Positions 2 through 17,850 of a DNA stretch of 25,443 nucleotides are shown here, piece by piece. Both the position numbers and the translations under genes were made by a program. This DNA comes from a virus: the IMG/VR virus record IMGVR_UViG_3300000101_000015, positions 35,858 to 61,300 of that record, one strand, 5' to 3'. Positions within the stretch are counted from its first letter, which is position 1. The number at the start of each line of letters is the position of its first letter. The notes under the pieces were generated by a model. The model had not been told where the DNA came from and searched no databases. It was given only the letters and a program-made list of their open reading frames with translations.

Positions 2-3000
2 GTAGTAGCTGATCAAAAAGCAAGAGAAAGTGTTTCTCCAGAAACTGTAATGCAAGAAGAAATAGTTGACATTGAGCAGGTTTTACAAGAAGCAGAAGTT
101 CCAGAAATAGAAGTTGATCAAGATAATGAAAACTCTGATGTTCTTAGAAATATCCTTGAACAACAATATATTATATATAGATCTAATGAAGTTTCACAAA
201 CTCCACTGACATATGATGAGTGGAAGAAAACTGGTGATGCTCTAAAGATTACACTTGCTTTTGATGCTATAAAAAGAGTATGGGCTAAAGGATATAAAAT
301 ATCTGTAGAAGAGTATGGTGTTCAAAGTGAGAGAACAAGAATACCAACAATAGAAGAAGTTAAAAATGAAAAAGGATTTCAAGAATTCTTAGATAGTAGA
401 GAAGGTATTGAAGACCCAACTATTCAAAAAATATTAAGTGATTTAGATTTAACTTATGATATTTTTACTAATAGAAATATAGATACTAAAAGTAATTTAA
501 AACCAATCAAAGGTGGTGACGGTGTAATGTTTAGAGTTATACCAAAAGATGTTGCTGGTACAGATGAAAAACTTTATCAAATACTAAATAACACTGGAGC
601 GGAATTAACAGCCATTCAATTAGATTTAATTGATGGATTTGGTGTTTATAATACTAAACAAAAAGCCATAGAGCAATTTAACATATTAGAAGAAAAATAT
701 TCTGATGGTAAAACTTTTAAATTTGATGGGTTAAATCTTGTCAAAGGTCAATTTGTTTATGATAAAATAACAGGGGAAGCATTTAGAATTACAAGAACTC
801 CTTTAGGTACTAAATTAACTTTAGTGTCATCTGAGGATTATGGTAAAGCTGAAAGAAAAAATCCTATAAGATATGAAACTGAATTAGATTTTTCAGAAAG
901 ATTTTATATAGAGAAATTAATTATTGAGAAAGTAGACGCTGGAGCTGCAAAGGTGAAAGCAGATGATGCTGTTGCAATATATGCCAGGGAAGGTAAGAAT
1001 GAAAGTAAAGAGTCTGCTAAAGAGCGTTTAAATTATATAGTTGCTAACTTAGATGAAGAAGGTGTATCAAAACTTACAATCAAGGTTTCTCTAAATAATG
1101 AGCTCTTGCCTTCTGACTATAGTATGAGAGGTGCTATGATTCCTAACCCTTATATAAAAGACAAAGGAGAAAAGTATAACTTAGAGATTGCTATAACAGA
1201 TCCTGATATGTTAAAGGACATAAATGAAGGTTTAGTTGCTGAGGGTTTAAAAGCAATAGATCCTGCTTTGAATGGAACATTTGCTCATTTAAGTAATGAC
1301 CGTTTTATATTTGAAGTATCTCAAGGTAAAGTATTTACACCTGCTACTATGTCTATTGATTTAGCAAAACAAGTATTTGTAGTAGGTAAAAATCAAACTA
1401 TAGAAGGTCAATTAGAAAAAGCTAAAAATAGTTGGGCTGATAATGACGCATTAATTAGTTTTATAGATGGTATATATTCTGAAGGTCAAACAGAAGTAGA
1501 CTTAGTTTCAGTTATAGGAAATGGATTTAGACTCAATAAAGTAGATGGTTATGCTGATTATGATGGAGCTAATCCTATGGTTACTTTACAAGAGTTTTAT
1601 GATAAAGGATTAACATCCAATGGTGCTGGTGGTATAATTATTTATGATAACACTAGAAGTGCAGATGGCAAAACAATTGATGGTAAACCTAATGCAATAA
1701 CTAATATTGCTGATGATGATTTAAACAAAGCATTACTGGATGAAGCTGAAGCAGGATTAAAAAAGAATGGAAGCTGGCAAAAAATGATTGGAGATAACTC
1801 AATGGGTTATCAAGAAAGATATCAGTATGCTATAAAACAATCAAACGGAACATGGACATTAGCCACTGCTAAGACTGTAGGTCAAGATCCAGCAGTAATA
1901 GAAAATTGGATGTCTTCAATGATGGATCAAGTGTTGTTGATGAAAGAAGGCATAAAGAATGACAAAGGTGGTTTTACAACTAAACCTTCTATTGGACCTA
2001 CTGGCAACTACATTAACGGTGCTACAAATGCTTCTATTGGTGCAGAGGTTGATCTTTTTAATAAAACAAATAATGAAGGTATTAGGATAGCAATGAATCC
2101 CGGTACAAATTTATTTATTACAGTAGCACCATTTGGAAAGATAAGAGCTGTAGTAGAAACAAACCGTACAAAAACGGGTGTAGTATATTTAACAGTAGAA
2201 GATATTAAGGCTGAAAGTAATCCTATGGTTAACTTGAAGAACTTAATGGACAAGGTAAATACAAAGATGGCTGAAGTGGGGTCACCTGCAAGAATTGCAT
2301 TGCCTCAGTTTAGTACATCATTATCTTTAAATGCAACTGTTCAAACAATGATGGAGTCATTGGCAACTAAACTAACAACAAAAGTTAGAAGAAATGCTAC
2401 ATACATTTTCCAAGCAACATCAGCTAAAAGAGAAGCATCAAATAATAAAGCTGTTAATGTATCTCAAACACCTGTTGATCAAGCAGAAGCAAACACAAAG
2501 AAGCTAACTGACTTAGGAGATAGTATCACAACAGACGCTATATTCCAACAGACAGAAGTCTTTACAGATGCAGAAGGTAACCCTATTCCAAAAGGACCTG
2601 AGCTAACCGCAACAAATACTGCAGCAGTAGATTTGACATCTCTTGCTCAAAAGCCTTTAGATCAACTCAATTCTAAAATGAAAGAGATTGAGCAAACCAT
2701 AAAGGATGAAGTTGGACCACGTGGTTTAGCAGAAGCATTAAGAAAAAATGAAGTATACCAAAAATTAAAAATAGCTAGAGATAAGTTAATAGCAAACAAA
2801 ATTGCTTTATCATTTACAGAGTCTGATATTAAAGACTTAGAAGAATTCACTGTATGGGCACAGAATAACCTTCCTAGCTTTATTACTATAGAAGATATAC
2901 GTGCTCTAGGATCCAATATGTTAAGAGGTGGAATCAGAGTAGGTGGCTTTGCATTAAACTTAAATGCATTGGCTGGAGGATTGAAGATAGGTGGAACAAT

Positions 3001-6000
3001 CTATACTGGTTCTTCTAATCCATTTAAATACCATGAAGCGTTTCACTCTGTTTACAGATTATTACTTACTCCTGAAGAGCAAGAAAATTTAAGATCTATT
3101 GCAAGAAAAGAAGTAAGAGCTAAACTCAGAGCAGAAGGAAAGTCTTTTGTAAAAGAAATACAAAAATTTAAGAACTCTGCTGAACAGTATGATAGTCTTA
3201 GTAAAAAAGAATTGGAGAACCTATACTATGAAGAGTATATGGCTGATCAATTCCAGTTGTTTAAAAATAACGCTACAGATAGTTCTACAAGTTCAGAAGT
3301 CAAATCATTCTTTACAAGATTACTAGAATGGATTAAGGGTGTTTTTAGTAAGTATACAAAAAATGAACTTAGTAAATTATTTGAAAACATTGATGCAGGT
3401 AAATATGCAAATGCTCAAGCTGTATCTAATGATTTTACAGATAACTATAGTAACGGTGTTACAATAGCCAATGCAATGATCCCTTATAAGTCATTACAAG
3501 TAGGGGTAACAAAAGGTGAATTATATTTAGAAAGCTCTGTTGCTAATAATATAGTCTTATCTATGGCAGCTATGTATATAGAAAGACAAAAAGATAACCC
3601 ATCAGAATCTGAGATTGATAGAATGAATGGGATTATTTCAGACTTTGCTTGGTTATATAATAAAGATAATGAGGCAAACATTGAAAGCATAAGCAATCCG
3701 GATAAAGCAGAATTGTTATCAAAGCTGACTGATGCCTTTTTGGATTCACAAACTTATGATGACAGGACTCAATCTCCATTTTATAAAGCAGCATTTTCTG
3801 TATTAGATACTATTGATTTTCAAAAAGCTGTTGAAGAGGATCTTGCAGAAGAGTATGAACAAGAAGAAGGTCTTAGAAATGTAACTCAGTTTGGTAAGGA
3901 AACATACTTGAATGGTAGTTTTAGTTCTTTATCTACATACATGAGAAAGTATTTAGCAACCATTACAAGAGAAGAAGGAGATATATTTGGAAATCAGTTT
4001 ATAACTAGAGATGACGGAAGAGAAGAAAAACTTATAGTACCAATAAATGTATACAATACATACAATGGTATAATGAAAGCTGTTACTGGTAGAACTGAGC
4101 CAATTGAAATACTACAATCACTTGCAATTTTTGCAGATAGTAATCCAGATACCAAGGCTGCAGTAAGCAAAATATTTAATGACCTAGGTATAAACTTGGG
4201 TGATCAAATATCTGAAGAGCTTTTACCAACTACAATTACAAATAGTATTTTGTTTAATCAATTAAAAGCGTTTGTTAACTTTAAGGTTGAATGGTTATTC
4301 CAGAAAGCAGATAAAGCTGGTAATGTTATAACATTTTCTGCAGCGGAAAGAGATGATGCAAATACCCAATTGAGTTTGTGGAGCCAAGCATTTACTACAT
4401 TTCTACAAGAGTGGAAAATTAGACCTCAAGGTAGAGACAATGCTGTAAGTTCTGTATCAGGTTTTAGAAGAGTGTTGTTAAGTGGTCAAACATTTAATAA
4501 ACAACAGTTAACTGATCAAGCCAATAATATATCAAAGCTTGTTTATGATACTACTGGAATAAAGTTATCTCCATTGTATGTGAAGTATAGCATATTAAAA
4601 AGCAATGGTGTAAACAACAATGATGCAGATCAGCAACTTTTATTAAGTCTAAATACAGAGGCAGAAGCCATAACTGCAGAGCAGCTTTATTTCATACAAG
4701 AAATAATAGCAAATAAAAAGAATGCTCATCAGTTATATAGTGATGAAGAAGGTGCTGCTGGTAGACTTAAAATGATGGCTGTTAATAATGCTATATTTGA
4801 TGAGACTATAGGGTTATCAGTATTTAAAAATGTTAATGGTGATTTAGTTAATACACACCAAAAGCCAACCTTTCATTTAAAAAGAGTGGCTGCATTAAAC
4901 AACCTAAGTGAAATAGATAGATTGCTGTTAAAACCATATCTGAGAGATAATTATTTATTAAACAGTGAAGAGTTTCTAGCTATGTCTGCATCAAACTTGC
5001 TTAAAATTAAAAGAGTTTCTGGTGTAGCTGAAGTAGAAACATTGGATAGAAACGCAGATTATGATCAATATATTAGTGGTGTATTAAATACAACAGAATA
5101 TGGAAGCTTTACAGCAACTCAATTTTTAACAAACTTAATAAACAACTATACTTTAGATTTTAATACAAAGTCTTTAGCGTTAAAGAATACAATAGTAAAT
5201 GATGAAACTCAACAAGTAGAACAAATTGGAACTGCTCCTGTACAGATTAGAGTTTTAGAAAGCTCTAATACAGATGATAAGATATCACTTCCTGTAATAC
5301 AAGCGGTTTCAAATGTTATTGATAAAGCAATTACACCAGAAGCTATTGATATAGCCTATGGTTTTGTTAAGAATGAATATAATAGAATTGTACGTGAACA
5401 AGGTGAAGAAGGTATTCAAGATTCATATAAAGGTTATGAAGAAAGAAAAAATACATTCTTTAATAATAGTGACTTAATTTCTGATGAACTTAAATTAGGC
5501 TTAGAAGAATCAGCAAAGGCTAACCTTGAAGGTAAAACATTTACCTTTGAAGAAGCTTTATCTAATAACGAGAGTGGTGATAAAGACTTTAGAAAACAAT
5601 TAGAAAACAGACTTAATGCAAAGTATGATAGATTTAAAAGTTTGTATGACAGATTAAATATAGATAGTAAAATATCTAAAGAAATTAAATCCGGTCTTGT
5701 TCAAGATAAAACAGGAGATGCTAGGGCTAAGGCTGTTGAAGCATCTGCAAAACTAAACATGAGATTTGATAAGGACTACAACCTTAAACAAATATTTTTA
5801 AATGATTATTTAAATACCAAGTCTATAAATGAATTGCTCTTAGGTGATCAAGCTTTAATTTTAAAAGATGCGGTTGATCAAATTAAAAGAGCTAAAGGTC
5901 AGAATGCAGCATATGATAATGTCTATACTTCTTTAACAAGTGAGAAGTTAGGGGTAACTTCTGCTACAGAAGAGATATCAGTTCTTACGTTTACTGATCC

Positions 6001-9000
6001 TGTATTAGAATCATATTTTACAGGTAAAGATATAGAACGTGCAGATGCACAGATGTATATAACTACAAAAGCATTTAGACATTTTTGGTTTGGGTTAGGT
6101 AAACTTACTCAACAACAAGCTGATGTAATTACTAAAATAGAAAAGGGAGAAGAAATTACTACTGAAGATATATTTGGTGAGAGTGGTTTAATTGCTACTG
6201 ATGGTATGTTAAACTCTAAGAAGTTTGTACACTTTGATGGTGAGTCATTTATCAAAATGTCTGCCTTTGTATTAACTCCAGAATACACATCTATAAATAC
6301 AGGTAAGAAAGATGATAACGGAAATACAGTTTGGGCTGAGCATCCTTTAAGACCTGAGCTTCATAAGTTAAGACAAGATCTAGAACGTCTGGAAACAACT
6401 ACAGGTAATGTATCAATAGCAACTCCTGTCTCAGCACAGAAGATGGCTAAGAAAAATATTCAATCTTTGACTAGTAGTATTACAGAACCTTCTAGTACTA
6501 TTAGTGCAAAGGACTTTGGATTACAAGTAATAAATCCTAGTAATAAGAATAAGGTAACTGAAGTAAGTCAGATTAAAATATTGGCAACAAATGAACAGAA
6601 TGATAAACAGCCAATTATTCTTGAAGGATATCCGGGTGTAACAAATATTGCTGATGTTAAGAGACTATATAATGATGCACTGAAAAAAAGAATTACTCTC
6701 AAGTATAAAAATAAAAGAAACCTAACTTTTTCTTTTGATGGTTTGATGTCTGAGTTTAGTGTGAGTAAAGAAAGAAATAAACTTACTCCTGACTTAGCAG
6801 CATTTATGACTTATGCAGTTAATTCATTAAAGGCATCCAAGTCAAGCGGTACAATAATGGAATTCTTTTCTATTGATCCTATTTCAGGAGAACCTAAATT
6901 TGATTTTAATAATCCACTAGCAGCGCCAAAGGCTCAACAATTATTTTTGAGTTACTTTACAAAAGACGTATTCCAAGAGAAAATACCAGGGCATGGTTTA
7001 GCTTTAGTATCTGACTTTGGTAATACAGTATTTAGACGTGTCTATAGTGTAGAAGAGGTAAAACAAAAAGATGGCACATTCAAATACTTGCCACTAAAGC
7101 ATGAAGTAATAAGAGAAGATGTAGCTAAACGTATGAGTGGGTTAGAGGCATTTGATTACTCTTTATCAACTTTATCAGGAATGACAATACCAAAAGAAGG
7201 AATTGTAATTGTTGATAGATTAAGATATGGGTTACAAGAGTTTAATGCTAAAGGAGAGCCAACAGGTTTACGTTATTCTGAAGGTATGATGCCAGCTCAC
7301 TTAAAAGATGTATATGAAAAGATACAATTAAAAGGAGGGTCTATACCAGATGTAATTGCAAAAATGTTTGCTGTACGTATTCCATCACAGGATAATCATT
7401 CTACTATGAATATTAAGCTTGTAGATTTTATGCCAGTATATTATGGCTCTTCTGCAATGTTCCCCGCTGAATTGATTGAAGTATCAGGAGCAGATTTTGA
7501 TATTGATAAAGTATATACTCAAATTAAAGAATACTATTATTCTCAAGATGACAGAAAGTTCTATGCTTATGGAGAAACAAAAGGGAGAGAGTATGCTGAT
7601 TATGTTGAATATATTAATAATGAAGTTCAAAAAGACAATTCATATTCTGAGGCAGTAAAATCATTTAAAGTCCAAGGTTCAAAACTTGAGGATTCTTATG
7701 ATGATAGTGAGCTTCTAGACACACCGTTTACTGATAGTGGTTTAAAAGCAGTAACAAGATTGGGATTACCTGCAACAAAAAAAGCATACAACACATATAA
7801 AGAATCATATGGTGAACCTTATTTAGCACCATATAACAATATATCTTTGGATATGAGGTTTGCATTAATGGGTAATGAATCTGTACAAAACATTTCTGTT
7901 ACACCTGCATCACTACTTGCTGTAGAACAATCATATGAATATTTAAAAAGGTTTGCGCCTAATTATGTTGCTAGTATGGATGGTGCACAAGTTGATGTTG
8001 ATGATGCATACGGTAAAACAATTTCATTTATAAATAATAAAGGGGCAGCTATTGGAAGAGCAGTATCACCTAATTTATATTTAAGTTTACTTTCTGAATA
8101 TAAAGTAAAAATAAATCCTGAGCAGGCCTTTGTCTTTTTAGGTAAAGAATATACTGGGTTTGATCAACCTCTAAATAAAGATGGTCAAAGAAAGCAAGAT
8201 GAAATATCTGCTGTAATAACTATGCTTACTGATAATTCTAAAGAGAATTATATGTCTAAGCTAGGGATGCACCGTCAAGCAGTACCCCTTGCCACTAACT
8301 TAGTAGCTTTAGGGATGCCTTTAAAAGAAGCTATTCTTTTATTAAATGTTAAAGAAGTAAGAGATCTATTTGAGAAGGCTGCAAATAAAGAAAATAAATT
8401 TGATCCAAGTTTTGCAAGTCTTGTTAATGAACGTTTGTATGATTTAAAAGAACAAAAGAAACTTGGCACTCTACCAGCTGTAGAACGTGAAGAGGGTTCA
8501 GTATTCAGTAAGAAAATTGATGAACAATCACTGGGTCAAATGATTGAATCTGGTGCATCTGCACAACAGGAGATGGAGATATTAGATATTATATCTAAGA
8601 TTAATAAGATTTCAAGTTTTACAGGTAAAATGAATTCATTAACTGGTATATCTGGTAGTGCAGGTTTAGGAAAAAACTTTGCTTCTATTGCTAAGACAAG
8701 AGCAGATCTTGTAGAGATAGGTGCAATAGAGGAGAAGGGTGTAAAACCTGATATGGATATATCCCGTATTCTAGAAAATAGTTTTGTAAAACAAAATTTA
8801 AATATCTTTAATGAGATAACAAATGAGTTATTGCCAGTTACATTCTTAACTGCAACAGATGGATTTACTGAATTTTATAATAAATTAAAAAAGTCTTTAG
8901 GAACAGAGTCAAATAAATTTACTGAAGAGACAGAACAAAAAATTAAAAATGATATGCTTTCTTATTTTACAATAAAAGCATATATGAATAATACAAAAAA

Positions 9001-11419
9001 TACATTAAGTAAAGGTGCCGGTACATTAAGTAATCAACTTATATACCCCATAGTAGGTGCTCAAAATATTTTTGATTCAGTTAGAAGATTAAATGCTGCT
9101 GATAAAGATAATTTCTTTTTAAAATCATTTATTACACAGCTTCCAATTAGTGCTGAGACTAACATTAAAGGATTAAACTTGTTAGAAGCAAACACATGGA
9201 GAAATTTAAATAAGCTACAAAACATAGACTTACAAACTTCATTTGCTAAACTATATGGTAACCCTAACACAAGAAGAGATGCTATGACCATAGTAAATTA
9301 TATTATGGTTAAAGATGGTTTACAACTAGCAAGTCAAAGTTTATTGCAAGCAATATCACCATTTGTTTTAGATGGTTATTTACAGCAAATAACAAATGCA
9401 AAAGAGTCTCTTCTAAATGATAACAACTATGAAGAAACATTTGGATTAAGCAAAGAGGAATTGTTTAGTGAGTTTGAGACAGGCTACTTAACGTCTAATG
9501 TTAATACACTTAAAATTGTAGGCAGAGAAATATATACTGATATAGCAAACCAGTCTACAGTTCAAGGAACTCTTAAAGGTCAGATTAAAATTACAGAAGC
9601 AGATGGCAAAAGAAAGCTAACTCTGAAGAAGAGAACAAACAAAGCTGATGAGTCATTTGAATATGATAATCAGCCTGCAGTAATAAGAATCTATACTGAA
9701 GCAGAGCAACAGAGTGGTAAAATGAAAAAGTCATCTAGACTTTATAAACTCTTACCTAAAGACACAGAAGGCAACTTAGATCAATCAAGTTATCAGTATA
9801 TTGAAGTTCCAGCAATGGGATCTAATTTTCAGAATGGTATAGGGTTTATGTTTGGTCCTAGAGATACCTATGCTGAAGTTAGAGAAAACATAACAAATAA
9901 AGGATCAATTGCATTTGGTCAGGATATAGATATGCTAGGTGTTAACCAAGATATTGCTTTAGATGCTGCCTTAGATAATATGGAGTTTGACAGAAAGAAT
10001 TCATTACCTGCTCAAGCTTTAGGTATGGAAAGTGCAAATGTATCTGCTACAGAAGACAGTGTAGATTTTCAAATAGATTCATCTGTTCCTCCAGTTAACA
10101 TTGCACAGGTAGATGCTAATACATTTTTGGAAAGCATAACAACTCCTACAGAACAAACTAGTGGTGTTGAAGCTGAGATTAAAAGATTAGAGGCGGAAAG
10201 AGATAAGGAGTTATTGGCTAATAATAAGTTAAAATTACAGGATTTAAAAACAAAGGTTTCTAATAAATTTGGCACATTACAAGATTCTAAAGCAGAACTA
10301 TTAGAAAAGTATAAAGGAAATGAGGTTATTGAGTTTATAATCAACAATCTTTATGATGTAAATCCAGGAAGTAATGCGTATGTAGATTTAGATGAATGGC
10401 GCTCTTCTGAAATATCAAAATTTAACTTAAAAAGTAATAAGTTAGAAGAAGCAGTTATTTTTAACTTTCCTGAGCTAACAAAAAAAGAACTTACTAATAT
10501 TTTATCTCCTGTTAGTGAAAGTATTTTTCTAGAACACAAAGCTGCTTTAGTAGCTGAAGCAGAAGGTCTTTCTGGACTTCCTGATAATTTATCAGAATTA
10601 AATGCTGAAAAGATCATCACTAAATACGAGAAACTAATAGCTAAAGCTAAACAACAACAAACTAGTAAGGTTGAAATATCTTCTAATGCTAAAGGTTTAG
10701 CAGCAGCGCTTACTAATCCTACGGAATTAGCTAAGTCTAAAGGTAACCTTGCAGAGTCTTACCCTATAACTTTTAACGGTAAAAACTATAAAGATGTTGA
10801 GGCAGCTTATCAGGCATTAAAAGATAAGTCTGAAGCTAGGACTAAACCCACTAAGGAAAATAGTAATAACTATAGGTTGATGGTAGATTTAATATCAGCT
10901 AAATTAGAGCAACACCCTAGGTTAGTTTCTTCAATAACTGAAAAAGGAGGTGTTGATTGGATAAGTTCTTCTACTCACCAACCTACTAAACAAAATACAG
11001 TTTGGGAAACGGGTGGTCAAGATTGGTTTATTGAATCTTTAGCTGATGCTTATAGATCTACTCAACCAGCAACACAATCAAGAGAACAAGCTAATATTAA
11101 AACAGAGTCAGAAGGTGTTGTAGTAGCTGAAGATAACATGCCTAAATTAACTGCAAAACAAGATGAACAATTAGATTTATTTGAAGCAGCCTTGGAAGAC
11201 AAGTATCCATTAATAACGGAATTCTATAATGAAACAATTAATGCTCCATATATAGCAGATGAATTTTCAGAGATGAGAAAAAATCTAGCTGACAATAAAA
11301 TTGTATCTTTGGAGAGCCTGATAGCGCTGTATGAAGATCCTACATTAACATATAAGGGTAAAACTGAAGAGGAAAAAACTAAGAATTTCTTAGATGAAAT
11401 TAAAAGATGTAATTTATAG
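2..11419 (+). CDS. Giant crAss-like virion RNA polymerase multidomain protein (5' partial)
   Basis: The frame is open to the left edge: codons from base 2 run without a stop into the first ATG at base 50, so the true start probably lies outside the window. Residues below count that ATG as 1 (3,789 aa). Domains in order: a long unassigned N-terminal part (1-990); a zincin motif HEAFH at 995-999 with EEYMAD at 1061-1066; long helical segments; an RNA polymerase core at about 2100-2800 with the metal loop DFDID at 2482-2486; a charged helical, probably coiled-coil stretch near 3400-3450; a NADAR-like domain at about 3543-3685; and QLDLF at 3707-3711. Proteins of this family are packaged in the virion, injected, and transcribe early phage genes. 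It is longer than the phi14:2 protein (about 2,180 aa as I recall), so several functions appear fused here. The stop is 3 nt before the next giant gene, so the two are surely co-transcribed. The polymerase call is strong; the other domains are motif-based inference. Confidence 0.85.
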   Translation, partial: VVADQKARESVSPETVMQEEIVDIEQVLQEAEVPEIEVDQDNENSDVLRNILEQQYIIYRSNEVSQTPLTYDEWKKTGDALKITLAFDAIKRVWAKGYKISVEEYGVQSERTRIPTIEEVKNEKGFQEFLDSREGIEDPTIQKILSDLDLTYDIFTNRNIDTKSNLKPIKGGDGVMFRVIPKDVAGTDEKLYQILNNTGAELTAIQLDLIDGFGVYNTKQKAIEQFNILEEKYSDGKTFKFDGLNLVKGQFVYDKITGEAFRITRTPLGTKLTLVSSEDYGKAERKNPIRYETELDFSERFYIEKLIIEKVDAGAAKVKADDAVAIYAREGKNESKESAKERLNYIVANLDEEGVSKLTIKVSLNNELLPSDYSMRGAMIPNPYIKDKGEKYNLEIAITDPDMLKDINEGLVAEGLKAIDPALNGTFAHLSNDRFIFEVSQGKVFTPATMSIDLAKQVFVVGKNQTIEGQLEKAKNSWADNDALISFIDGIYSEGQTEVDLVSVIGNGFRLNKVDGYADYDGANPMVTLQEFYDKGLTSNGAGGIIIYDNTRSADGKTIDGKPNAITNIADDDLNKALLDEAEAGLKKNGSWQKMIGDNSMGYQERYQYAIKQSNGTWTLATAKTVGQDPAVIENWMSSMMDQVLLMKEGIKNDKGGFTTKPSIGPTGNYINGATNASIGAEVDLFNKTNNEGIRIAMNPGTNLFITVAPFGKIRAVVETNRTKTGVVYLTVEDIKAESNPMVNLKNLMDKVNTKMAEVGSPARIALPQFSTSLSLNATVQTMMESLATKLTTKVRRNATYIFQATSAKREASNNKAVNVSQTPVDQAEANTKKLTDLGDSITTDAIFQQTEVFTDAEGNPIPKGPELTATNTAAVDLTSLAQKPLDQLNSKMKEIEQTIKDEVGPRGLAEALRKNEVYQKLKIARDKLIANKIALSFTESDIKDLEEFTVWAQNNLPSFITIEDIRALGSNMLRGGIRVGGFALNLNALAGGLKIGGTIYTGSSNPFKYHEAFHSVYRLLLTPEEQENLRSIARKEVRAKLRAEGKSFVKEIQKFKNSAEQYDSLSKKELENLYYEEYMADQFQLFKNNATDSSTSSEVKSFFTRLLEWIKGVFSKYTKNELSKLFENIDAGKYANAQAVSNDFTDNYSNGVTIANAMIPYKSLQVGVTKGELYLESSVANNIVLSMAAMYIERQKDNPSESEIDRMNGIISDFAWLYNKDNEANIESISNPDKAELLSKLTDAFLDSQTYDDRTQSPFYKAAFSVLDTIDFQKAVEEDLAEEYEQEEGLRNVTQFGKETYLNGSFSSLSTYMRKYLATITREEGDIFGNQFITRDDGREEKLIVPINVYNTYNGIMKAVTGRTEPIEILQSLAIFADSNPDTKAAVSKIFNDLGINLGDQISEELLPTTITNSILFNQLKAFVNFKVEWLFQKADKAGNVITFSAAERDDANTQLSLWSQAFTTFLQEWKIRPQGRDNAVSSVSGFRRVLLSGQTFNKQQLTDQANNISKLVYDTTGIKLSPLYVKYSILKSNGVNNNDADQQLLLSLNTEAEAITAEQLYFIQEIIANKKNAHQLYSDEEGAAGRLKMMAVNNAIFDETIGLSVFKNVNGDLVNTHQKPTFHLKRVAALNNLSEIDRLLLKPYLRDNYLLNSEEFLAMSASNLLKIKRVSGVAEVETLDRNADYDQYISGVLNTTEYGSFTATQFLTNLINNYTLDFNTKSLALKNTIVNDETQQVEQIGTAPVQIRVLESSNTDDKISLPVIQAVSNVIDKAITPEAIDIAYGFVKNEYNRIVREQGEEGIQDSYKGYEERKNTFFNNSDLISDELKLGLEESAKANLEGKTFTFEEALSNNESGDKDFRKQLENRLNAKYDRFKSLYDRLNIDSKISKEIKSGLVQDKTGDARAKAVEASAKLNMRFDKDYNLKQIFLNDYLNTKSINELLLGDQALILKDAVDQIKRAKGQNAAYDNVYTSLTSEKLGVTSATEEISVLTFTDPVLESYFTGKDIERADAQMYITTKAFRHFWFGLGKLTQQQADVITKIEKGEEITTEDIFGESGLIATDGMLNSKKFVHFDGESFIKMSAFVLTPEYTSINTGKKDDNGNTVWAEHPLRPELHKLRQDLERLETTTGNVSIATPVSAQKMAKKNIQSLTSSITEPSSTISAKDFGLQVINPSNKNKVTEVSQIKILATNEQNDKQPIILEGYPGVTNIADVKRLYNDALKKRITLKYKNKRNLTFSFDGLMSEFSVSKERNKLTPDLAAFMTYAVNSLKASKSSGTIMEFFSIDPISGEPKFDFNNPLAAPKAQQLFLSYFTKDVFQEKIPGHGLALVSDFGNTVFRRVYSVEEVKQKDGTFKYLPLKHEVIREDVAKRMSGLEAFDYSLSTLSGMTIPKEGIVIVDRLRYGLQEFNAKGEPTGLRYSEGMMPAHLKDVYEKIQLKGGSIPDVIAKMFAVRIPSQDNHSTMNIKLVDFMPVYYGSSAMFPAELIEVSGADFDIDKVYTQIKEYYYSQDDRKFYAYGETKGREYADYVEYINNEVQKDNSYSEAVKSFKVQGSKLEDSYDDSELLDTPFTDSGLKAVTRLGLPATKKAYNTYKESYGEPYLAPYNNISLDMRFALMGNESVQNISVTPASLLAVEQSYEYLKRFAPNYVASMDGAQVDVDDAYGKTISFINNKGAAIGRAVSPNLYLSLLSEYKVKINPEQAFVFLGKEYTGFDQPLNKDGQRKQDEISAVITMLTDNSKENYMSKLGMHRQAVPLATNLVALGMPLKEAILLLNVKEVRDLFEKAANKENKFDPSFASLVNERLYDLKEQKKLGTLPAVEREEGSVFSKKIDEQSLGQMIESGASAQQEMEILDIISKINKISSFTGKMNSLTGISGSAGLGKNFASIAKTRADLVEIGAIEEKGVKPDMDISRILENSFVKQNLNIFNEITNELLPVTFLTATDGFTEFYNKLKKSLGTESNKFTEETEQKIKNDMLSYFTIKAYMNNTKNTLSKGAGTLSNQLIYPIVGAQNIFDSVRRLNAADKDNFFLKSFITQLPISAETNIKGLNLLEANTWRNLNKLQNIDLQTSFAKLYGNPNTRRDAMTIVNYIMVKDGLQLASQSLLQAISPFVLDGYLQQITNAKESLLNDNNYEETFGLSKEELFSEFETGYLTSNVNTLKIVGREIYTDIANQSTVQGTLKGQIKITEADGKRKLTLKKRTNKADESFEYDNQPAVIRIYTEAEQQSGKMKKSSRLYKLLPKDTEGNLDQSSYQYIEVPAMGSNFQNGIGFMFGPRDTYAEVRENITNKGSIAFGQDIDMLGVNQDIALDAALDNMEFDRKNSLPAQALGMESANVSATEDSVDFQIDSSVPPVNIAQVDANTFLESITTPTEQTSGVEAEIKRLEAERDKELLANNKLKLQDLKTKVSNKFGTLQDSKAELLEKYKGNEVIEFIINNLYDVNPGSNAYVDLDEWRSSEISKFNLKSNKLEEAVIFNFPELTKKELTNILSPVSESIFLEHKAALVAEAEGLSGLPDNLSELNAEKIITKYEKLIAKAKQQQTSKVEISSNAKGLAAALTNPTELAKSKGNLAESYPITFNGKNYKDVEAAYQALKDKSEARTKPTKENSNNYRLMVDLISAKLEQHPRLVSSITEKGGVDWISSSTHQPTKQNTVWETGGQDWFIESLADAYRSTQPATQSREQANIKTESEGVVVAEDNMPKLTAKQDEQLDLFEAALEDKYPLITEFYNETINAPYIADEFSEMRKNLADNKIVSLESLIALYEDPTLTYKGKTEEEKTKNFLDEIKRCNL
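2945..3270 (+). other. Zincin-type metalloprotease domain inside the giant polymerase protein
   Basis: H995-E-A-F-H999 (bases 3032-3046) is an intact HExxH zinc-binding motif. About 62 residues downstream, EEYMAD (1061-1066) could supply the third ligand (E1061 or E1062), as in gluzincin-like proteases where an E near an AD pair completes the site. The stretch just before it is Gly-rich with alternating hydrophobic residues, which fits the beta strands that precede the active-site helix. All predicted catalytic residues are present, so it may be active. A possible job is maturation of the giant protein or cleavage of a virion or host protein. Limits are approximate. Confidence 0.65.
6380..8330 (+). 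other. RNA polymerase catalytic core (double-psi beta-barrel region) with DFDID metal loop
   Basis: The core centres on SGADFDIDKVY, with the three aspartates D2482, D2484 and D2486 at bases 7493-7507. It corresponds to NADFDGD of cellular RNA polymerase beta-prime and to the DxDxD loops of YonO and RNAi-type polymerases. Upstream, AVRIPSQ (about 2441-2447) followed by VDFMP matches the spacing of the conserved R-x-P segment before the loop in beta-prime-type barrels. An earlier segment with SAQKMAKK near 2127 may belong to the other barrel. Downstream, MLTDNSKE (about 2727) and the following helix are the kind of conserved block seen after the barrels in this family. The motif is read directly; limits are inferred. 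Confidence 0.8.
10681..11085 (+). other. NADAR-like (YbiA-type) domain at the C-terminal end of the polymerase protein
   Basis: Residues about 3543-3685. The pattern follows NADAR proteins such as YbiA: YPITFNGKNYKDVEAAYQ matches the strand-turn-helix that carries the conserved Glu (E of VEAAYQ; the usual following His is Ala here), then a helix containing AKLEQHP, which resembles AKFEQH of YbiA, then WETGGQDWF, which resembles the Trp-Gly-Gly segment before the last helix. NADAR proteins act on ADP-ribose-type substrates, including removal of ADP-ribose from nucleic acid bases in some systems. The leading segment GLAAALTNPTELA is typical of phage versions as I recall them. Whether it is active is unknown. 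Confidence 0.55.
11168..11182 (+). other. QLDLF sliding-clamp-binding-type motif
   Basis: Residues 3707-3711 read QLDLF, an exact match to the bacterial beta-clamp-binding pentapeptide consensus QL(S/D)LF. It lies in an acidic, polar segment just after the NADAR-like domain and about 80 residues before the C-terminus, a plausible exposed linker. A short motif can arise by chance, so function is inferred. Confidence 0.35.
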
Positions 11420-11422
11420 AAT

Positions 11423-14400
11423 ATGGGAAAGTGTCATAACAAAAACTTAATAGAGTATAAAGCATTAAAGCAGGTTTACAAAACTGATATTATTACTAAT
11501 AATGTAATCAATCAATATCAAGGACTTGCTAACAATGATAATATACCTACTACTCTTCAAGCTAAGAATATGCTTGCTGATAAAAAAACTTTGTATAATA
11601 TAAAGCAAAGAGAATTTGGTACAGCTATTCTTAATAATTTAAGAAGATTAAAAATTATACATAGTTTTGAGGGGACATACTATATTAATAATACAGATCA
11701 AGAAACATTACAACCTAGTACGTCACTAGTTGAGTCTAATATAAGAAGGTTAAATAAATACCTTGAGGTAAATAACATTCCTTCTGAAACAGTAAACGTT
11801 AGTGCTACTAAGAAAACCTATGCTGTATCTATAAACAGTGATATGTTTTCTGCAAAAGATATGCTTGAGTCTTCTAGGTCATGGGATATGCCAAGATCAA
11901 GAAAGGTCATAATGCATCTAATGAAAATGTTTCCTGGTATTAATGTAAGGTTAGAGTCAGTTAAAGATGCTCAAGAATTATATGACTCACTACCTCAATG
12001 GAAGAAGTCAAAGGTTTCCTTTTCAGAAATTAATAGTTTTTATGTAAACGGTACAGCAGTATTAATAAAAGGGAGAGTTACAGATGAGACAGCAATAGAG
12101 GAAGTACTACACCCATTTATAGATGCAGTAAAAGTAGATAATGAGGTTTTGTTTAATTCTTTATTGGCAGAAGCAAAGAAGAATTTTCCAGAGATGACTC
12201 AACAAATTCAGGATGCGTACAATAACAAAAGAAGGTTTACTGAAGAAGACATACAGTTAGAAATAGTAACACAAGCACTATCAAGACATTTTAATAATGA
12301 ATATGAGAGCACACCAACAAAATCTTTTATGGACAAAGTCCTTGAGTTTTTAGAGTGGTTTGCAGATATTATTAAAAACCTCAATGAGGTAATTACAGGA
12401 AGAGAAATTAAAGTAGATAACATATCTGAAAAAGCAACACTTACAGACATTGCAAAGTTGCTGAATACAGATGGTATATCTTTTAAATTAGAAAGTTCTG
12501 TAAATGGAAGAGTAAGGTATAACTTATCTCCTAAGAAACAAAAGATAGTAAACACACAAAAAGCTATTGGTGGGCCACTTCAAAAAAGAATGGTTGATAG
12601 ATTGCTTCATTCTGTAAATGAAACAAAAGCAGAAGTAGATACGTTAACTGCTACTGAGTCAGTTAATTTTAATAGTGATGATCTTGTAATATTAAATAAA
12701 CTAGATGGTAAGTATTATAACCTTACTAAAAAGAAAGTATTTAGATCAGCAAAAGAAGCATTGGGTAGACCAGAAACTCCACAACAACAACTGATAAAAA
12801 ATGATGTTAGTACAATGCTTGATGCTATTGCTTCTAATGAAAATTTTGATAGTATAAAAGGAGACCTTTTAAATATAAATGAAGAAACAGGTAAAATATC
12901 TTTTGATAATTTAGTTGCTCAGATAGAAGTAATAAAAGATCCAGGAGACATAATGCTTACTAACGTTGTGTTTCATGATCAAGTTACTGAAATTGCATCA
13001 AAAGCAGACATAGTAATAATTACTACAGCAGGACAACTAAAGTTAATACAGATACAAGCAAACGATAGTAATGTTCTTACAACAAATCCTAAGACATGGT
13101 TACAGGGTATATTTACTAAGACTAGTGACATGGGAATTATATATGGAGATAAAAAAAATCCATACAATGTAGAAAAAATAACACTTGAAGAAGGCAGTCT
13201 ATATGCAGAAACTACCGGAACTAAGTCTCTGACTTTAAGAACATTAGATTCATTAGAGGTTAATGTTCTTAAAAGAATGGTAGAAAACATGGGCTATGAA
13301 TTAGCTTATGGAATAGGGAATGTGTCAAGCGTCCTTATGTCTTACAGTAAAAACAACATCAGGTTTGATGGTCACATGCCTCACGGATACAAACAAAATG
13401 TAGAAAAGGTTAATGCAATAATCCCTTCTGTTGATACAGTGTTGTCTCAAGAAGAGATATCAGACAATGTAATTAAAGATGCAGAAGAGCAAATATATAA
13501 TGCTGAAAAAGATATAGAAGGTGCTGAGAATTTAGCAAGTACTATTGATCCAATTGACTACCCTGCACAAAGTACAATTCAAGGTGCTTTAGATACATAT
13601 GAAAAAGCCCTACTAAAAACAACACAAGTTGAAGATTTAGTTAGGTCAAATATATATAGAGATAGAACACAAGAAGAAGTTAAGGAGGCAGTTACTAGTA
13701 CTCTAGGGTATATAACAATAGCAAGAGCTGAAGGACCGGTTGCAGCATCTAGAGTATATACACAGCTATTGCAAGATTCTTTAAGACAAATGAAGTCTTT
13801 TAAGGAGTATGCACAAGACCCTAAGAATCAAAGTCAAAAAGAGTATATAACATATGTTCTAAACTTTAATAGGTTTCTTTCTACATTTGAAGGGCTCCAT
13901 ACTTTAGAAGCTAACAGTGAACTAAATGCAACACAAAGATCTTTAGTTGGTAGTATCAAAATAGAATTGACTCAGTTGTTGGGTACAGATACAGTTTCTC
14001 AAACAGGCAAAGGTAGAGGTATAGTTAAGACAGCTATATTGGATTATGTTGCTGCAGTTATAAGAGCTAATAACCCAAAGGGAGGTAAGACTGATGCACA
14101 AACTGTTATTCAATCACACTCAGGAGATACGTTAACACTAGATGATTTAGATAGACTATTAACTCTTGTTCCAGATATTAACAGTTCAGAATTATATGCT
14201 AAAGATTTAGCAACATCAAAAGATGTTATCCTTGCAACCATGGATAAAATCTATAAAAGGAAAAGACAAGAGTATTTAGATAAAGTTGATGCAAGAAAAA
14301 AAGATATAATAAATTCAGGTAAAACATTACTTGAGCTGTCTTCTGAGAAAGATTTACAAAAGCTATATGACTTTATGCTTGAGTATAATGAGGATGGTGA

Positions 14401-17188
14401 TTTTACAGGTTTCTATGTTCAACGTGTTGGACAACAATACTATTCTAAAAAGAATGCTTTAAGGAGTGAGCTCTATGATGCTAACGGTAAACCATATAAA
14501 TACTTTCCTATATACTCATTGATAAATGCTAACCCTGAACATGTACAATATAATAAGGACTTGTATTTAAAGAAAAGAGCATTTGCTGATTTCATGCAAT
14601 CTGAAAGATATGAAGAAGGTAGTCTTATTGATGGTCAATATCATAAAGTAACAGATGAGTTTAATGCTATAAGAAAAAACTTTGAATATGCACAGCCTTG
14701 GGCAAATGGAGAAGGTGTTACTTGGTTAAAGAAACCGGGTGTTAATAAAAATGCTTATGATGTATATAAAGCTAAATACTATTATAAAGTAGACTACACA
14801 AAAACATTTAAGGATGCAAATAATGACCCTACCGGAGCAATAAAAGAGGGTGAAGATTTTTCTGCACTTAGACCAGAGTATACTGAAGTATTAGATACTA
14901 ACACAGACACAGGTGAATCTTTATTAAGTGAGAAGTATGAGAAGATAATGAACCCAACAGATCAGCTGGGTCAGGCACAGAAGAATTTTTATTTAAAGTA
15001 TAGAGAACATTATGAAGATGGTTTGCTTCAGAAACTTCCTAAAGCACAGAGAGATCAAATGCTTGGTAAGGTTCCTGTAATAGCAAATAACTTTGTTGAT
15101 GAAGTAATGGCCAAGCCTGAATTTTTTACAAGGCTAATTCCAAAGTTTCTAACAAGTATTAAAGAAGTGTTTACTGAAACATCAGAACAAAAACAAGTTC
15201 TAATAAATGAAGAAGGTCAATTAGTTGATACTATGCCTGTTTTCTATACAGGTAACCCTAGAGTTGAAGGAGCACTTGAAGCAATATATGAACAGATACA
15301 GGCTTTAAAAGATCAAAGAACTGCAGGTGCTATAAACATTAATCAATATAAAAAAGAAAGATCAAAGCTAGAAGCACAGGCATCCAAGTTAAGATCACAA
15401 CCTACTCTGGGTGAGGTTAGTAAAGACATGACTAAAAGTTTGGTTAAGTTTGCGGCTATGGCTGAGAACTTTGAGGTAATGGGTGAAATAGAAGACACAT
15501 TACAAGCTATGCTTAAAGCTATTGAAATGAGAACTTATAAGAAACCAGGTACTCAACTTGAGCTTCTTGGTAAAGTTGTTGACACAGCAGGGAATATTGT
15601 AAATGCTGCAGTAGGAAAACAAAACACACAAGGCTTGCAAAGTAATGCTGCACAAAGAGCACACCATTGGATGAAAATGGTTTACTATGACAATGATAAA
15701 ATTACAAAAGGAACTGTAGATAAGATTGCAGGAGGACTAATTAATGCATCTTCTTTAGCCTATGTTGCATTTAACGTATTTGGTAACTTGAATAACTTAA
15801 CGTTAGGTCAAATTAACAACTATATAGAAGCAGCGGGCGGATTATTTTATAGTGCTGGTGATTATACTGAAGCTACCAAGATGTTTTATACTGAAGGAAC
15901 AAAGGGTTTAATAGAAAGATCAGCAAGTGCTATAGGATCAGGCGCAGATTTTGTAGGAAGAGTAGCAACTTTAAATGCAGTTCAGTTAAAGAAAAAAGGT
16001 TATGATGAAAATAGACCTTTAAATAAATATGAAGCATTAGTTCAATACTTCCGTATGATGGATAATGATGCAGATATAAGAGAGCAATTTGGTCTTGGGG
16101 ATGGTGAAGGTATATGGTCAAGATTTACAAACTTTGGTTACTCTCTTAACCAGGGTGCTGAATATAAAGTACAAAGTACTGTTGGTATGGCAATGCTATT
16201 AGGTACTCAAATTTCTAATGGTGAAGATTCATTAAATCTTGTAGATGCTTATGACTTTGACCCTTCAACAGGAGAGGTTAAATTAAAAGAAGGATACAAC
16301 ACAGTAATAGATAAGCTGTCTGGAGAAGAGATGACTTATGATGATAGGTTTAGATATGACTTAAGAAACAATATACGTGAAGTAAATAAACAAATTCACG
16401 GTAACTATGCTAGAGAAGACAGAATGGTTATTCAAAATAACTTTTTAGGAATTTTGCTTGCACAGTTTCACAAGTGGGTAATGCCTGCTTACAGAGCAAG
16501 GTTTCAATCAGCATACTACGATCAAAACTTAGGATGGTTAGAAGGTAGATATAATTCACTAGGAAAATTTATAGTTCATATTGCTAAAACTGCAGTTGTG
16601 GGTGAAAAAGGATTTAAAAAGTTTGGATTAAAAAGCTTAGGTCAAACCTTCAAGCAAGAATACGGATTGATTGAAACAAAAGATGGTTTTAATTATGACG
16701 AGGGTAAAGCAAACATGCTACTTAAAAATGTTTATAGGACTTTAGGAGAAGCAATGATATTAATTATTGTTGGTATCATGAATGAAATAGTAAACGGAGG
16801 TGATGATGAGGATGATATGATTACTAGAAAACTAAAAAATTATGCGGCCTATCAAACAGATAGAACATATAAAGAGATGGTTTTATTTAGTCCAATACCT
16901 GGCATGGGTGGGTATGAACAACTTTACCAAATGCTTAAGTCACCAATAGCCTCTACTAGAACATTAGGGGAAATAGGTGAAGCACTTTCAATGACTGTTG
17001 GAACAGGAGTTGGTTTATTATTCAATACTAAAGAAGAGTTTCTAGAAAACAGCAAATATGTTTATCAAAATAAGCCTAAAAAAGGTCAATGGAAGATTGG
17101 AAAAAACTGGAAAGATGTTATTCCGGTTTTATACACAATTCAAAAGTGGTCTAACTTTGAAAAAATGGATGATTTTTATATTAAATAA
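11423..17188 (+). CDS. Giant virion cargo/ejection protein with degenerate zincin and nuclease domains
   Basis: 1,921 aa, starting at an ATG 3 nt after the polymerase stop; no Shine-Dalgarno is seen, so translation is probably coupled to the upstream gene. Residues about 200-290 resemble a zincin, but the motif is EEVLH (226-230) rather than HExxH. Residues about 505-640 resemble a PD-(D/E)XK nuclease, but QIQ (543-545) stands where D/E-x-K is expected. The middle (about 690-1400) is mostly helical and charged. The C-terminal third has hydrophobic helices near 1435-1460 and 1773-1790 (LGEAMILIIVGIM) and Gly-rich segments, as expected for a capsid-internal protein that crosses or contacts the host envelope during injection. 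In crAss-like phages the genes beside the RNA polymerase encode packaged cargo proteins. No single catalytic activity can be assigned. Confidence 0.8.
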   Translation: MGKCHNKNLIEYKALKQVYKTDIITNNVINQYQGLANNDNIPTTLQAKNMLADKKTLYNIKQREFGTAILNNLRRLKIIHSFEGTYYINNTDQETLQPSTSLVESNIRRLNKYLEVNNIPSETVNVSATKKTYAVSINSDMFSAKDMLESSRSWDMPRSRKVIMHLMKMFPGINVRLESVKDAQELYDSLPQWKKSKVSFSEINSFYVNGTAVLIKGRVTDETAIEEVLHPFIDAVKVDNEVLFNSLLAEAKKNFPEMTQQIQDAYNNKRRFTEEDIQLEIVTQALSRHFNNEYESTPTKSFMDKVLEFLEWFADIIKNLNEVITGREIKVDNISEKATLTDIAKLLNTDGISFKLESSVNGRVRYNLSPKKQKIVNTQKAIGGPLQKRMVDRLLHSVNETKAEVDTLTATESVNFNSDDLVILNKLDGKYYNLTKKKVFRSAKEALGRPETPQQQLIKNDVSTMLDAIASNENFDSIKGDLLNINEETGKISFDNLVAQIEVIKDPGDIMLTNVVFHDQVTEIASKADIVIITTAGQLKLIQIQANDSNVLTTNPKTWLQGIFTKTSDMGIIYGDKKNPYNVEKITLEEGSLYAETTGTKSLTLRTLDSLEVNVLKRMVENMGYELAYGIGNVSSVLMSYSKNNIRFDGHMPHGYKQNVEKVNAIIPSVDTVLSQEEISDNVIKDAEEQIYNAEKDIEGAENLASTIDPIDYPAQSTIQGALDTYEKALLKTTQVEDLVRSNIYRDRTQEEVKEAVTSTLGYITIARAEGPVAASRVYTQLLQDSLRQMKSFKEYAQDPKNQSQKEYITYVLNFNRFLSTFEGLHTLEANSELNATQRSLVGSIKIELTQLLGTDTVSQTGKGRGIVKTAILDYVAAVIRANNPKGGKTDAQTVIQSHSGDTLTLDDLDRLLTLVPDINSSELYAKDLATSKDVILATMDKIYKRKRQEYLDKVDARKKDIINSGKTLLELSSEKDLQKLYDFMLEYNEDGDFTGFYVQRVGQQYYSKKNALRSELYDANGKPYKYFPIYSLINANPEHVQYNKDLYLKKRAFADFMQSERYEEGSLIDGQYHKVTDEFNAIRKNFEYAQPWANGEGVTWLKKPGVNKNAYDVYKAKYYYKVDYTKTFKDANNDPTGAIKEGEDFSALRPEYTEVLDTNTDTGESLLSEKYEKIMNPTDQLGQAQKNFYLKYREHYEDGLLQKLPKAQRDQMLGKVPVIANNFVDEVMAKPEFFTRLIPKFLTSIKEVFTETSEQKQVLINEEGQLVDTMPVFYTGNPRVEGALEAIYEQIQALKDQRTAGAININQYKKERSKLEAQASKLRSQPTLGEVSKDMTKSLVKFAAMAENFEVMGEIEDTLQAMLKAIEMRTYKKPGTQLELLGKVVDTAGNIVNAAVGKQNTQGLQSNAAQRAHHWMKMVYYDNDKITKGTVDKIAGGLINASSLAYVAFNVFGNLNNLTLGQINNYIEAAGGLFYSAGDYTEATKMFYTEGTKGLIERSASAIGSGADFVGRVATLNAVQLKKKGYDENRPLNKYEALVQYFRMMDNDADIREQFGLGDGEGIWSRFTNFGYSLNQGAEYKVQSTVGMAMLLGTQISNGEDSLNLVDAYDFDPSTGEVKLKEGYNTVIDKLSGEEMTYDDRFRYDLRNNIREVNKQIHGNYAREDRMVIQNNFLGILLAQFHKWVMPAYRARFQSAYYDQNLGWLEGRYNSLGKFIVHIAKTAVVGEKGFKKFGLKSLGQTFKQEYGLIETKDGFNYDEGKANMLLKNVYRTLGEAMILIIVGIMNEIVNGGDDEDDMITRKLKNYAAYQTDRTYKEMVLFSPIPGMGGYEQLYQMLKSPIASTRTLGEIGEALSMTVGTGVGLLFNTKEEFLENSKYVYQNKPKKGQWKIGKNWKDVIPVLYTIQKWSNFEKMDDFYIK
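12020..12300 (+). other. Degenerate zincin domain in the second giant protein
   Basis: A beta-rich lead-in (FYVNGTAVLIKGRVTDETA) is followed by EEVLHPF, which has the layout of a zincin active-site helix with the first zinc His replaced by Glu226. The second His (H230) remains, and E280 in LEIVTQALS sits where the third ligand and following helix are expected. The fold looks preserved while the standard HExxH site is lost. It could be catalytically dead or bind metal in another way. Confidence 0.45.
12930..13330 (+). other. Degenerate PD-(D/E)XK nuclease-like domain in the second giant protein
   Basis: The segment ASKADIVIITTAGQLKLIQIQ (bases about 12994-13057) has the strand-turn-strand layout of Cas4/RecB-type nucleases. 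D529 matches the conserved Asp, and 14 residues later QIQ (543-545) lies where D/E-x-K belongs. The later helix SLEVNVLKRMVENMGYEL resembles the family's helix with a Q-x-x-x-Y type motif. The key acidic and Lys residues are missing, so if the fold is right it is probably inactive. Inference from pattern only. Confidence 0.35.
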
Positions 17189-17278: not shown

Positions 17279-17692
17279 ATGACAACTAAACTCTTATTAG
17301 TGAGCATAACAGCATTCTGCACGTACTTATGTACGTACTTTTTTGATTTATCAATGGAAAACATGGAACAATACCTGGCGGTTTGTTCAGTATTATGGTT
17401 AGATGGCATTTTTGGAGTGTGGGCAGGCTGTAAAAGAGAGGGATTTAAAACATATAAAGCCTTAAGAATAACAAAGAACACCTTTACATGGCTGGCAATT
17501 CTGACAGTCATACTTATGATAGAAAAAGGTTTTGATGGAACAGGCTGGCTATCAGAAGTAATTGTAGTTCCCTTTATGGTACTTCAAATTATAAGTGCCC
17601 TAAAGAATGCGTCAATGGCAGGTCTGATAAAAACAGATGAGCTTAACAAAATTCTAGATAGGATTGATAATCATAAAGGATTAAGAAAATAA
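17279..17692 (+). CDS. Putative holin (holin 4/toxin-secretion-like small membrane protein)
   Basis: 137 aa with four hydrophobic segments at about 4-22, 31-48, 68-82 and 90-108, and a charged C-terminal tail. The block LDGIFGVWAGCKREGFKTYK, followed by RITKN, matches the pattern of the Bacteriophage_holin_4 family, in which an Asp-x-x-x-G helix is followed by a basic loop with a conserved Ser/Thr-Lys and then a Lys before the next membrane helix. Holins form lesions in the inner membrane and time lysis. It follows the giant genes after 90 nt and is followed by a terminator, so it is probably the last gene of that transcript. No endolysin is seen next to it. A second holin candidate lies at 22352. 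The family call is by pattern only; a membrane protein is certain. Confidence 0.6.
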   Translation: MTTKLLLVSITAFCTYLCTYFFDLSMENMEQYLAVCSVLWLDGIFGVWAGCKREGFKTYKALRITKNTFTWLAILTVILMIEKGFDGTGWLSEVIVVPFMVLQIISALKNASMAGLIKTDELNKILDRIDNHKGLRK

Positions 17693-17850
17693 GTACTGAA
17701 AATACATGTAAGAGTTGTGATAAACCCATGACATATTATGGAGGGACCAAGATAGATGGCCCCTTTTTTTATTGCCATTTATGTGACTTAGTATTATTTA
17801 TCTATCCTTCACAAGAAGAACACTCTAGTATATTACGTGCAAAGTCTTGA
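17680..17850 (+). CDS. Possible small zinc-ribbon reading frame without an ATG (or -1 frameshift extension of the holin)
   Basis: The frame contains CKSC (bases 17707-17718), DKPM, a Gly-rich turn, and FFYCHLC (second CxxC at 17773-17784), a classic two-knuckle zinc-ribbon layout with 18 residues between the pairs. There is no ATG before the first pair; the given start is an ATT. The frame is -1 relative to the holin, whose end reads AAA-TAA after a run of four A, so slippage of one base back at the stop would fuse the ribbon to the holin C-terminus. Against it: the terminator lies inside this frame, and its last 49 nt overlap the 3' end of nrdA on the other strand. Chance is possible, but the pattern is good. 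Confidence 0.3.
   Translation: MKKISTENTCKSCDKPMTYYGGTKIDGPFFYCHLCDLVLFIYPSQEEHSSILRAKS
17742..17770 (+). terminator. Rho-independent terminator after the holin-like gene
   Basis: AGGGACC (17742-17748) pairs with GGCCCCT (17758-17764) with one A-C mismatch, with a 9-nt loop, followed directly by seven T (17764-17770). It lies 50 nt after the holin stop and before the convergent nrdA gene. The opposite strand has no T-run after the same stem, so it acts only rightward. Confidence 0.7.

Follow-up and report, generated by a model that had tools for sequence, protein, structure and literature searches.

The analysed stretch of DNA, referred to as the window, is 25,443 nucleotides long and corresponds to bases 35858-61300 of a partial, 61.3-kb IMG/VR record (IMGVR_UViG_3300000101_000015; G000), which encodes an RNA polymerase (RNAP) block as well as virion structural proteins. 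Its left part is occupied, on the plus strand, by a frame (2..11419) which is uninterrupted, as originally claimed, and represents the 3' part (residues 1069-4873) of the ORF of a giant virion RNA polymerase (vRNAP) from an uncultured crAss-like phage. This ORF begins further upstream, outside the window: in full, it spans positions 32655-47276 of G000, with an ATG at 32655, and 1068 has to be added to a window residue number to obtain that of the full protein. The window begins within the gene, the base just before it (G000:35857) being a single ambiguous one (N). The full protein has 4,873 aa, and the length of at least 3,800 residues, initially proposed, was therefore an underestimate; the DFDID, HEAFH and QLDLF motifs, listed at the same time, are all present in the frame. 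Uninterrupted counterparts with the same architecture are found in L006/L007 (4,524 aa), L009 (4,616 aa) and L008 (3,798 aa, open at the 5' end): a misassembly of separate genes is not credible, because independent contigs carry the uninterrupted protein. Whole-protein searches against Pfam and PHROGs yielded nothing useful, and a single-sequence PDB search gave no result.

The RNAP core, of the phi14:2 gp66 type, is located at 5675..9247 (+). By tblastn, the central 800 residues match annotated crAss-like RNAPs, with E values down to 4e-12. When a profile derived from 22 divergent giant vRNAPs ("giants" in the following) was used in hmmsearch, PDB 6VR4, the structure of phi14:2 gp66, was the single convincing chain (E=9.7e-98, about 990 residues). 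The core includes a RIPxQ motif (7376-7390, +) and the catalytic DFDID (7493-7507, +; window residue 2498): in the RIPxQ...G-DFDID block the I, the P, the G and the three Asp are invariant, the Arg nearly invariant. The original prediction hinged on double-psi barrels near DFDID. The AlphaFold2 model of 5675-9247 (pTM 0.75) agrees with it: the best PDB match found by Foldseek is again 6VR4 (E=1.3e-26), with QDE-1 and further polymerases of the two-barrel type coming next, the barrels being assigned through this overall fold match to 6VR4/QDE-1, not barrel by barrel. A crAss-type polymerase is thus strongly supported and, as judged from profile and modelled fold, the giant protein is a crAss-like virion RNA polymerase of the gp66 family. 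It shares with gp66 the polymerase family, the fold and the catalytic DxDxD, and differs from it in size, gp66 being a protein of 2,180 aa without fused protease part or cassettes. RNAPs of giant size, reaching about 6,000 aa, have been published as a hallmark of the crAss group (PMC10136315). The phi14:2 homologue was found by MS/MS, according to its record; by analogy with such virion homologues, the window polymerase is probably injected into the bacterium.

Upstream of the core, a zincin-like metallopeptidase region is found at 2702..3400 (+). It contains HEAFH (3032-3046, +; window residue 1011) and, downstream, an EEYMADQF helix (+), presumed to provide the third zinc ligand. HEA[F/W]H and the EExxA[D/E]xF helix are common, with some variation, to 12 of the 13 aligned giants, and are kept across giants otherwise about 16% identical; the protease originally proposed is, on this conservation, a predicted one with its Glu ligand helix in place. 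L024 features a HEAAH close to the C-terminus, probably unrelated to the zincin motif of the other giants. When N-terminal regions were compared to the proteins of phi14:2, cr4_1 and Lbo-JY46, the sole match was that of the protease region in crAss phage cr4_1 (tblastn, E=1e-6). There, gp26 (Suoliviridae; annotated as hypothetical) is similarly a giant of 4,491 aa, whose HEAFH and DFDID are located at 2002 and 3433, respectively; unlike the window protein, it has several internal cysteines and no NADAR-like cassette. In the jaberico record, ZnMc is noted in the equivalent subunit. An RNAP-protease fusion is therefore already known in crAss phages, and is not new; fusions of zincins to the RNAPs of N4-like phages are also described (Iyer et al. 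2017, PMC5512222).

Downstream of the core, at 10157..11089 (+), the protein contains an in-frame insertion of 933 bp (311 codons), flanked by AGAACAA repeats (10150-10156 and 11083-11089, +) and absent from L005, a 99%-identical strain (99.3% over 3.8 kb upstream of the insertion, 97.6% over 8.3 kb downstream). The insertion is missing from L007 and L009 as well. The insert is composed of two cassettes. Cassette 1 (10172..10657, +) is a charged, helix-rich-looking segment, with 91% amino acid identity in L010 vs 41% for the RNAP core. Cassette 2, the NADAR-like second half, is found in about 20 other giants, mostly at the C-terminus; it precedes the catalytic motif in L026 and L044, while in L045 it occurs outside any vRNAP, in a separate 434-aa ORF (L045:9842-11146) with a HELLH motif of its own. 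The same site accommodates no cassette in L005 (TTPTEQANIK), one in L011 (TTPTEQTSKVE-NADAR) and two in the window: a fixed multifunctional architecture is ruled out by the cassette-free L005.

The NADAR-like cassette of the window is 99% identical to that of L020 (dS 0.02) and 77% to that of L024 (dS 0.53), vs 70% and 16-18%, respectively, for the RNAP cores, whose dS in these pairs is about 1 or saturated. The same holds for most pairs, with cassette dS of 0.02-0.7 vs core dS of about 1 or saturated; cassettes 50-77% identical are found between giants with cores about 16% identical. These sequence comparisons indicate that the NADAR cassette has moved between lineages.

The assignment of cassette 2 (10664..11065, +) to the NADAR/YbiA fold is supported by several tests. 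In hhalign, its profile matches the NADAR alignment with a probability of 96.3%; the AlphaFold2 model has a pLDDT of 85.6, and its top Foldseek match in PDB is E. coli YbiA (2b3w; TM 0.53, but a weak E=0.74), a Phytophthora NADAR being found at rank 15. In an alignment of 25 sequences, a Glu (10799-10801, +) and a Lys (10820-10822, +), aligning with the catalytic E..K pair of NADARs, are invariant and seven residues apart, which is the spacing reported for NADARs (PMC11543638). A His (10976-10978, +) is also invariant. Phage NADARs are reported to carry a His at the third catalytic position (PMC11543638, PMC11125620), to which that of cassette 2, similarly placed, would be equivalent. Fold, Glu/Lys spacing and His are thus shared with the NADAR family (YbiA, gp30.3, DarT1-linked; PF08719), from which the cassette differs in being embedded in a polymerase rather than free-standing, in the replacement of the WG and GxNxLG motifs by WE and GGQxWF, and in scoring below the curated Pfam cutoff: the best member reaches E=0.037 for PF08719, related genomes have no match, and the YbiA-like part is not named by a Pfam search on protein slices. 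T4 gp30.3 alone aligns to cassette 2 with a direct hhalign probability of 0.4%, a value which, for one sequence, says nothing, and no match to the cassette was found in any record of an isolated phage.

The motif replacements and the blindness of Pfam would fit a cassette that has become inactive and serves as mere linker or structural filler. We regard this as unlikely: active-site Glu and Lys are invariant in all 25 sequences, dN/dS is about 0.25-0.35 for most pairs (higher for L023 and L034), and independent cassettes of canonical NADAR type are found in other giants. As predicted from profile and model, the NADAR fold of cassette 2 is real. The original prediction of a YbiA-like part thus stands as to fold, not as to its being a fixed part of the protein, since it varies among strains and is missing in L005. 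Free bacterial homologues of the cassette are found in cyanobacterial and Chloroflexi bins (L056, L058, L059), fused to DUF4326, and, with a different C-terminal extension, in L060. DUF4326 has been linked with NADAR in ADP-ribose networks (PMC9503650); by their sequence, the fused homologues may be undescribed defence or ADP-ribose enzymes.

Both cassettes of the window start with CAAACTAGTNNNGTTGAA: joint 1, CAAACTAGTGGTGTTGAA (QTSGVE), is located at 10154..10171 (+), joint 2, CAAACTAGTAAGGTTGAA (QTSKVE), at 10658..10675 (+). Elsewhere, too, cassettes begin at a joint conserved at the nucleotide level, CCAACAC[A/C]ACAAACTAGTGAGGTTGAA, which is found ahead of many unrelated cassettes. An exact scan of viral contigs returned 100 stretches, many in giant vRNAPs before unrelated sequences, while part of them, including several of the matches outside giants, are due to chance; since the motif was derived from one DNA pattern, other joint types are undercounted. 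Among the matches listed, isolated phage records contain the 27-bp joint in part, with up to 24 bases, and nowhere in full. Between carriers, the RNAP cores are 21% identical (pairwise median), and the cassettes behind the joint include NADAR-like (E=0.003), GNAT-like (E=9e-4) and DUF7831 (E=1e-36) domains. In further giant proteins, from L118, L129 and L138, the same 27-bp joint is immediately followed by canonical-looking NADAR cassettes.

A joint located between modules, in a chain also containing a protease, may be kept for the sake of the protein: QTSEVE would be a cleavage site, at which the embedded zincin cuts the polyprotein into effectors, in line with the autoprocessing of polyvalent proteins proposed by Iyer et al. 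(PMC5512222). Conservation at the DNA level makes this improbable. A scan for PT[P/Q]QTSEVE, with every codon allowed, found 28 loci, all with near-identical 27 bases. Over 18 distinct contexts, third-position bases are conserved too (CCA, ACA and ACT in 18/18, AGT in 16/18, GTT in 17/18), and codons agree beyond codon usage, with a product of p values of about 1e-33; this measures conservation of the DNA, not independent events, the contexts being related by descent at the joint. Moreover, the joint is missing from many giants in which the protease motif is present, e.g. L007 and L009. The shared 27-mer might also act as a misjoin point, and among IMG/VR contigs the two-cassette order is unique to the window: differences in cassettes would then be assembly chimaeras, formed at a repeated short sequence. 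This appears very improbable, as the one-cassette state is found in four contigs from four metagenomes (L011-L014), reading frames are open across the joints, and standard assemblers use k-mers longer than the 27-mer. Transfer of real cassettes is preferred to both readings, and the nature of the joint suggests that they are joined by short-homology recombination.

The vRNAP gene is followed by that of a second giant cargo protein, of 1,921 aa (11423..17188, +), homologous to the crAss "RNA-polymerase subunit" encoded downstream of the RNAP (cr128_1, tblastn E=8e-18). The gene order is the same in cr4_1: the giant RNAP is followed there by a partner of 1,803 aa, with a single Cys, at residue 3. 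An isolated cyanophage, Leptolyngbya phage Lbo-JY46 (L063), whose record has no order-level crAss taxonomy, also has a homologue of the 1,921-aa protein (E=8e-15).

These two giant proteins of the window have one Cys each, at the ends facing each other. The only Cys of the 4,873-aa vRNAP is third from the end (KRCNL*; codon at 11408..11410, +), that of the second cargo protein is residue 4 (MGKC; 11432..11434, +), the two codons being about 21 bases apart. A Cys is found within the last 5 residues of 37 of the 42 vRNAP ORFs, otherwise poor in Cys; their Cys content would predict 0.12. Each of the 32 downstream partners within reach has a Cys at residues 3-5, and 30 of them have no other. When a vRNAP has an N-terminal Cys and the upstream ORF is readable, the latter has a single Cys, near the C-terminus in L033, L034, L036, L026 and L091, not within the last ten residues in L042 and L043. 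In the window, L006 and L044, the vRNAP has no N-terminal Cys and the upstream neighbour no Cys at all. The pattern extends to cultured phages. The virion protein gp66 of phi14:2 has, like the window protein, a Cys-paired neighbour, in its case on each side: g067 ends with NTIC, gp66 begins with MACK and ends with QECK, g065 begins with MSCK. cr128_1 largely follows the rule. Bcn18 and jaberico, examined after the rule had been formed, both agree with it. In Bcn18, residue 2339 of 2341 is the sole Cys of the protease subunit, the RNAP has Cys 5 and 2404, plus one internal, and the only Cys of the partner is at 5; the C-terminal Cys of the RNAP is 8-9 residues from the end in both Bcn18 and cr128_1, where extra internal Cys are present. 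In jaberico, the only Cys of the protease subunit is at 2017 of 2018; the RNAP, which is fused to its partner and has no separate one, features Cys 3, three internal Cys and no terminal one. A partial exception is crAss002 gp33, whose first Cys is residue 35, instead of 3-5.

A DNA-level reason for these cysteines is ruled out by cr128_1 and Bcn18, where the protease-bearing subunit, although encoded on the opposite strand, has its sole Cys at the end as well. The positions in vRNAPs and partners, which share no other sequence strictly, could reflect a packaging tag or a metal or scaffold contact, each end being recognised separately at loading, e.g. by the portal or a zinc site; protein ends are indeed a frequent place for tags. 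This reading, which we find rather unlikely, does not explain why Cys are confined to ends facing another protein of the RNAP block, why vRNAPs fused at their N-terminus have no N-terminal Cys while their upstream neighbour is then Cys-free, or why the jaberico RNAP, fused to its partner, has no C-terminal Cys. Fusion removes the Cys and separation restores it, as expected for a bond between proteins: a disulfide probably links the terminal Cys of the vRNAP to the N-terminal one of the cargo protein that follows. Disulfides are known to be present in the tails of crAss001, and partial unfolding is required for the cargo to leave (PMC10172136).

Taken together, the data suggest the following model. 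The protease-bearing cargo part and the polymerase, separate proteins in cr128_1 and Bcn18, form one polypeptide here. The linker that connects the polymerase core to a conserved C-terminal tail would be a slot for exchangeable domain cassettes, inserted in frame by short-homology recombination between co-infecting phages at a short DNA joint (about 27 bp, ...CAAACTAGTGAGGTTGAA). The window strain has two cassettes there, the charged segment and the NADAR-fold domain, the latter probably acting early in infection to remove or destroy host defence marks based on ADP-ribose. The vRNAP has no Cys other than that at its very end, which is probably disulfide-bonded to the N-terminal one of the next cargo: giant subunits, linked head to tail in the virion, would exit one after another through the narrow tail and come apart in the cytoplasm, a reducing environment. 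The way in which several very large crAss proteins traverse a tail less than 50 A wide, and their order, is an open question (PMC10172136). As a whole, a crAss vRNAP with fused protease, cassette slot, joint and disulfide-linked cargo is the best explanation, and one we hold to be reasonably probable. It is more tentatively, and with some doubt, that we extend it to crAss-like phages in general, as packaging giant polymerase subunits as a disulfide train and also using the polymerase to carry anti-defence domains, exchanged between distant phages by way of a short, dedicated DNA joint.

Parts of this arrangement have precedents. Polyvalent proteins of phages and conjugative elements are described by Iyer et al. 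2017 (PMC5512222) as large, probably injected, and combining a zincin with effector domains; the window protein, too, is large and associates a predicted zincin with unrelated effector domains. A single injected protein with several activities, as envisaged in the original prediction, would match this idea. The RNAP involved is, in contrast, of the single-subunit T7 type, and neither a nucleotide-level cassette joint nor a terminal cysteine rule is found in the accessible part of that article. As in the exchange of C-terminal cassettes of polymorphic toxins, a conserved carrier receives unrelated effector modules; here, however, the carrier is a virion RNA polymerase, the joint consists of a short stretch of DNA within a single ORF, and no immunity genes are seen. 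A literature search of limited coverage found no published description of the cysteine pattern or of the cassette joint, and these two features, a nucleotide-level cassette joint and Cys located almost only at protein-protein joints, appear to be new. The rule of one cysteine per joint, already holding in cultured isolates, makes cargo linkage directly testable, while the shared joint provides a nucleotide handle to collect the effector repertoire that is probably injected by these phages; it comprises NADAR, acetyltransferase-like and DUF7831 domains, among others, and for many of its members no function is known.

QLDLF, proposed as a clamp motif, is located at 11168..11182 (+; window residue 3723). 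It is present in the window, L020, L110 and L139, reads ALDTF in the sister strain L005, and is absent in most giants: with its Q not conserved, it hints weakly at a beta-clamp motif. Two different holin-like proteins are encoded at 17279-17692 and 22352-22768 (+), matching PF05105/phrog_199 and phrog_3427. The large (541 aa, short) and small subunits of a ribonucleotide reductase are found on the opposite strand, at 17802-19427 and 19440-20420 (-), coinciding with a GC skew switch; a 541-aa ORF is present at the place of the large subunit in L007 and L008 as well. Finally, a Cys-free, repetitive, fibre-like ORF (23880-25442, +) runs off the end of the contig.
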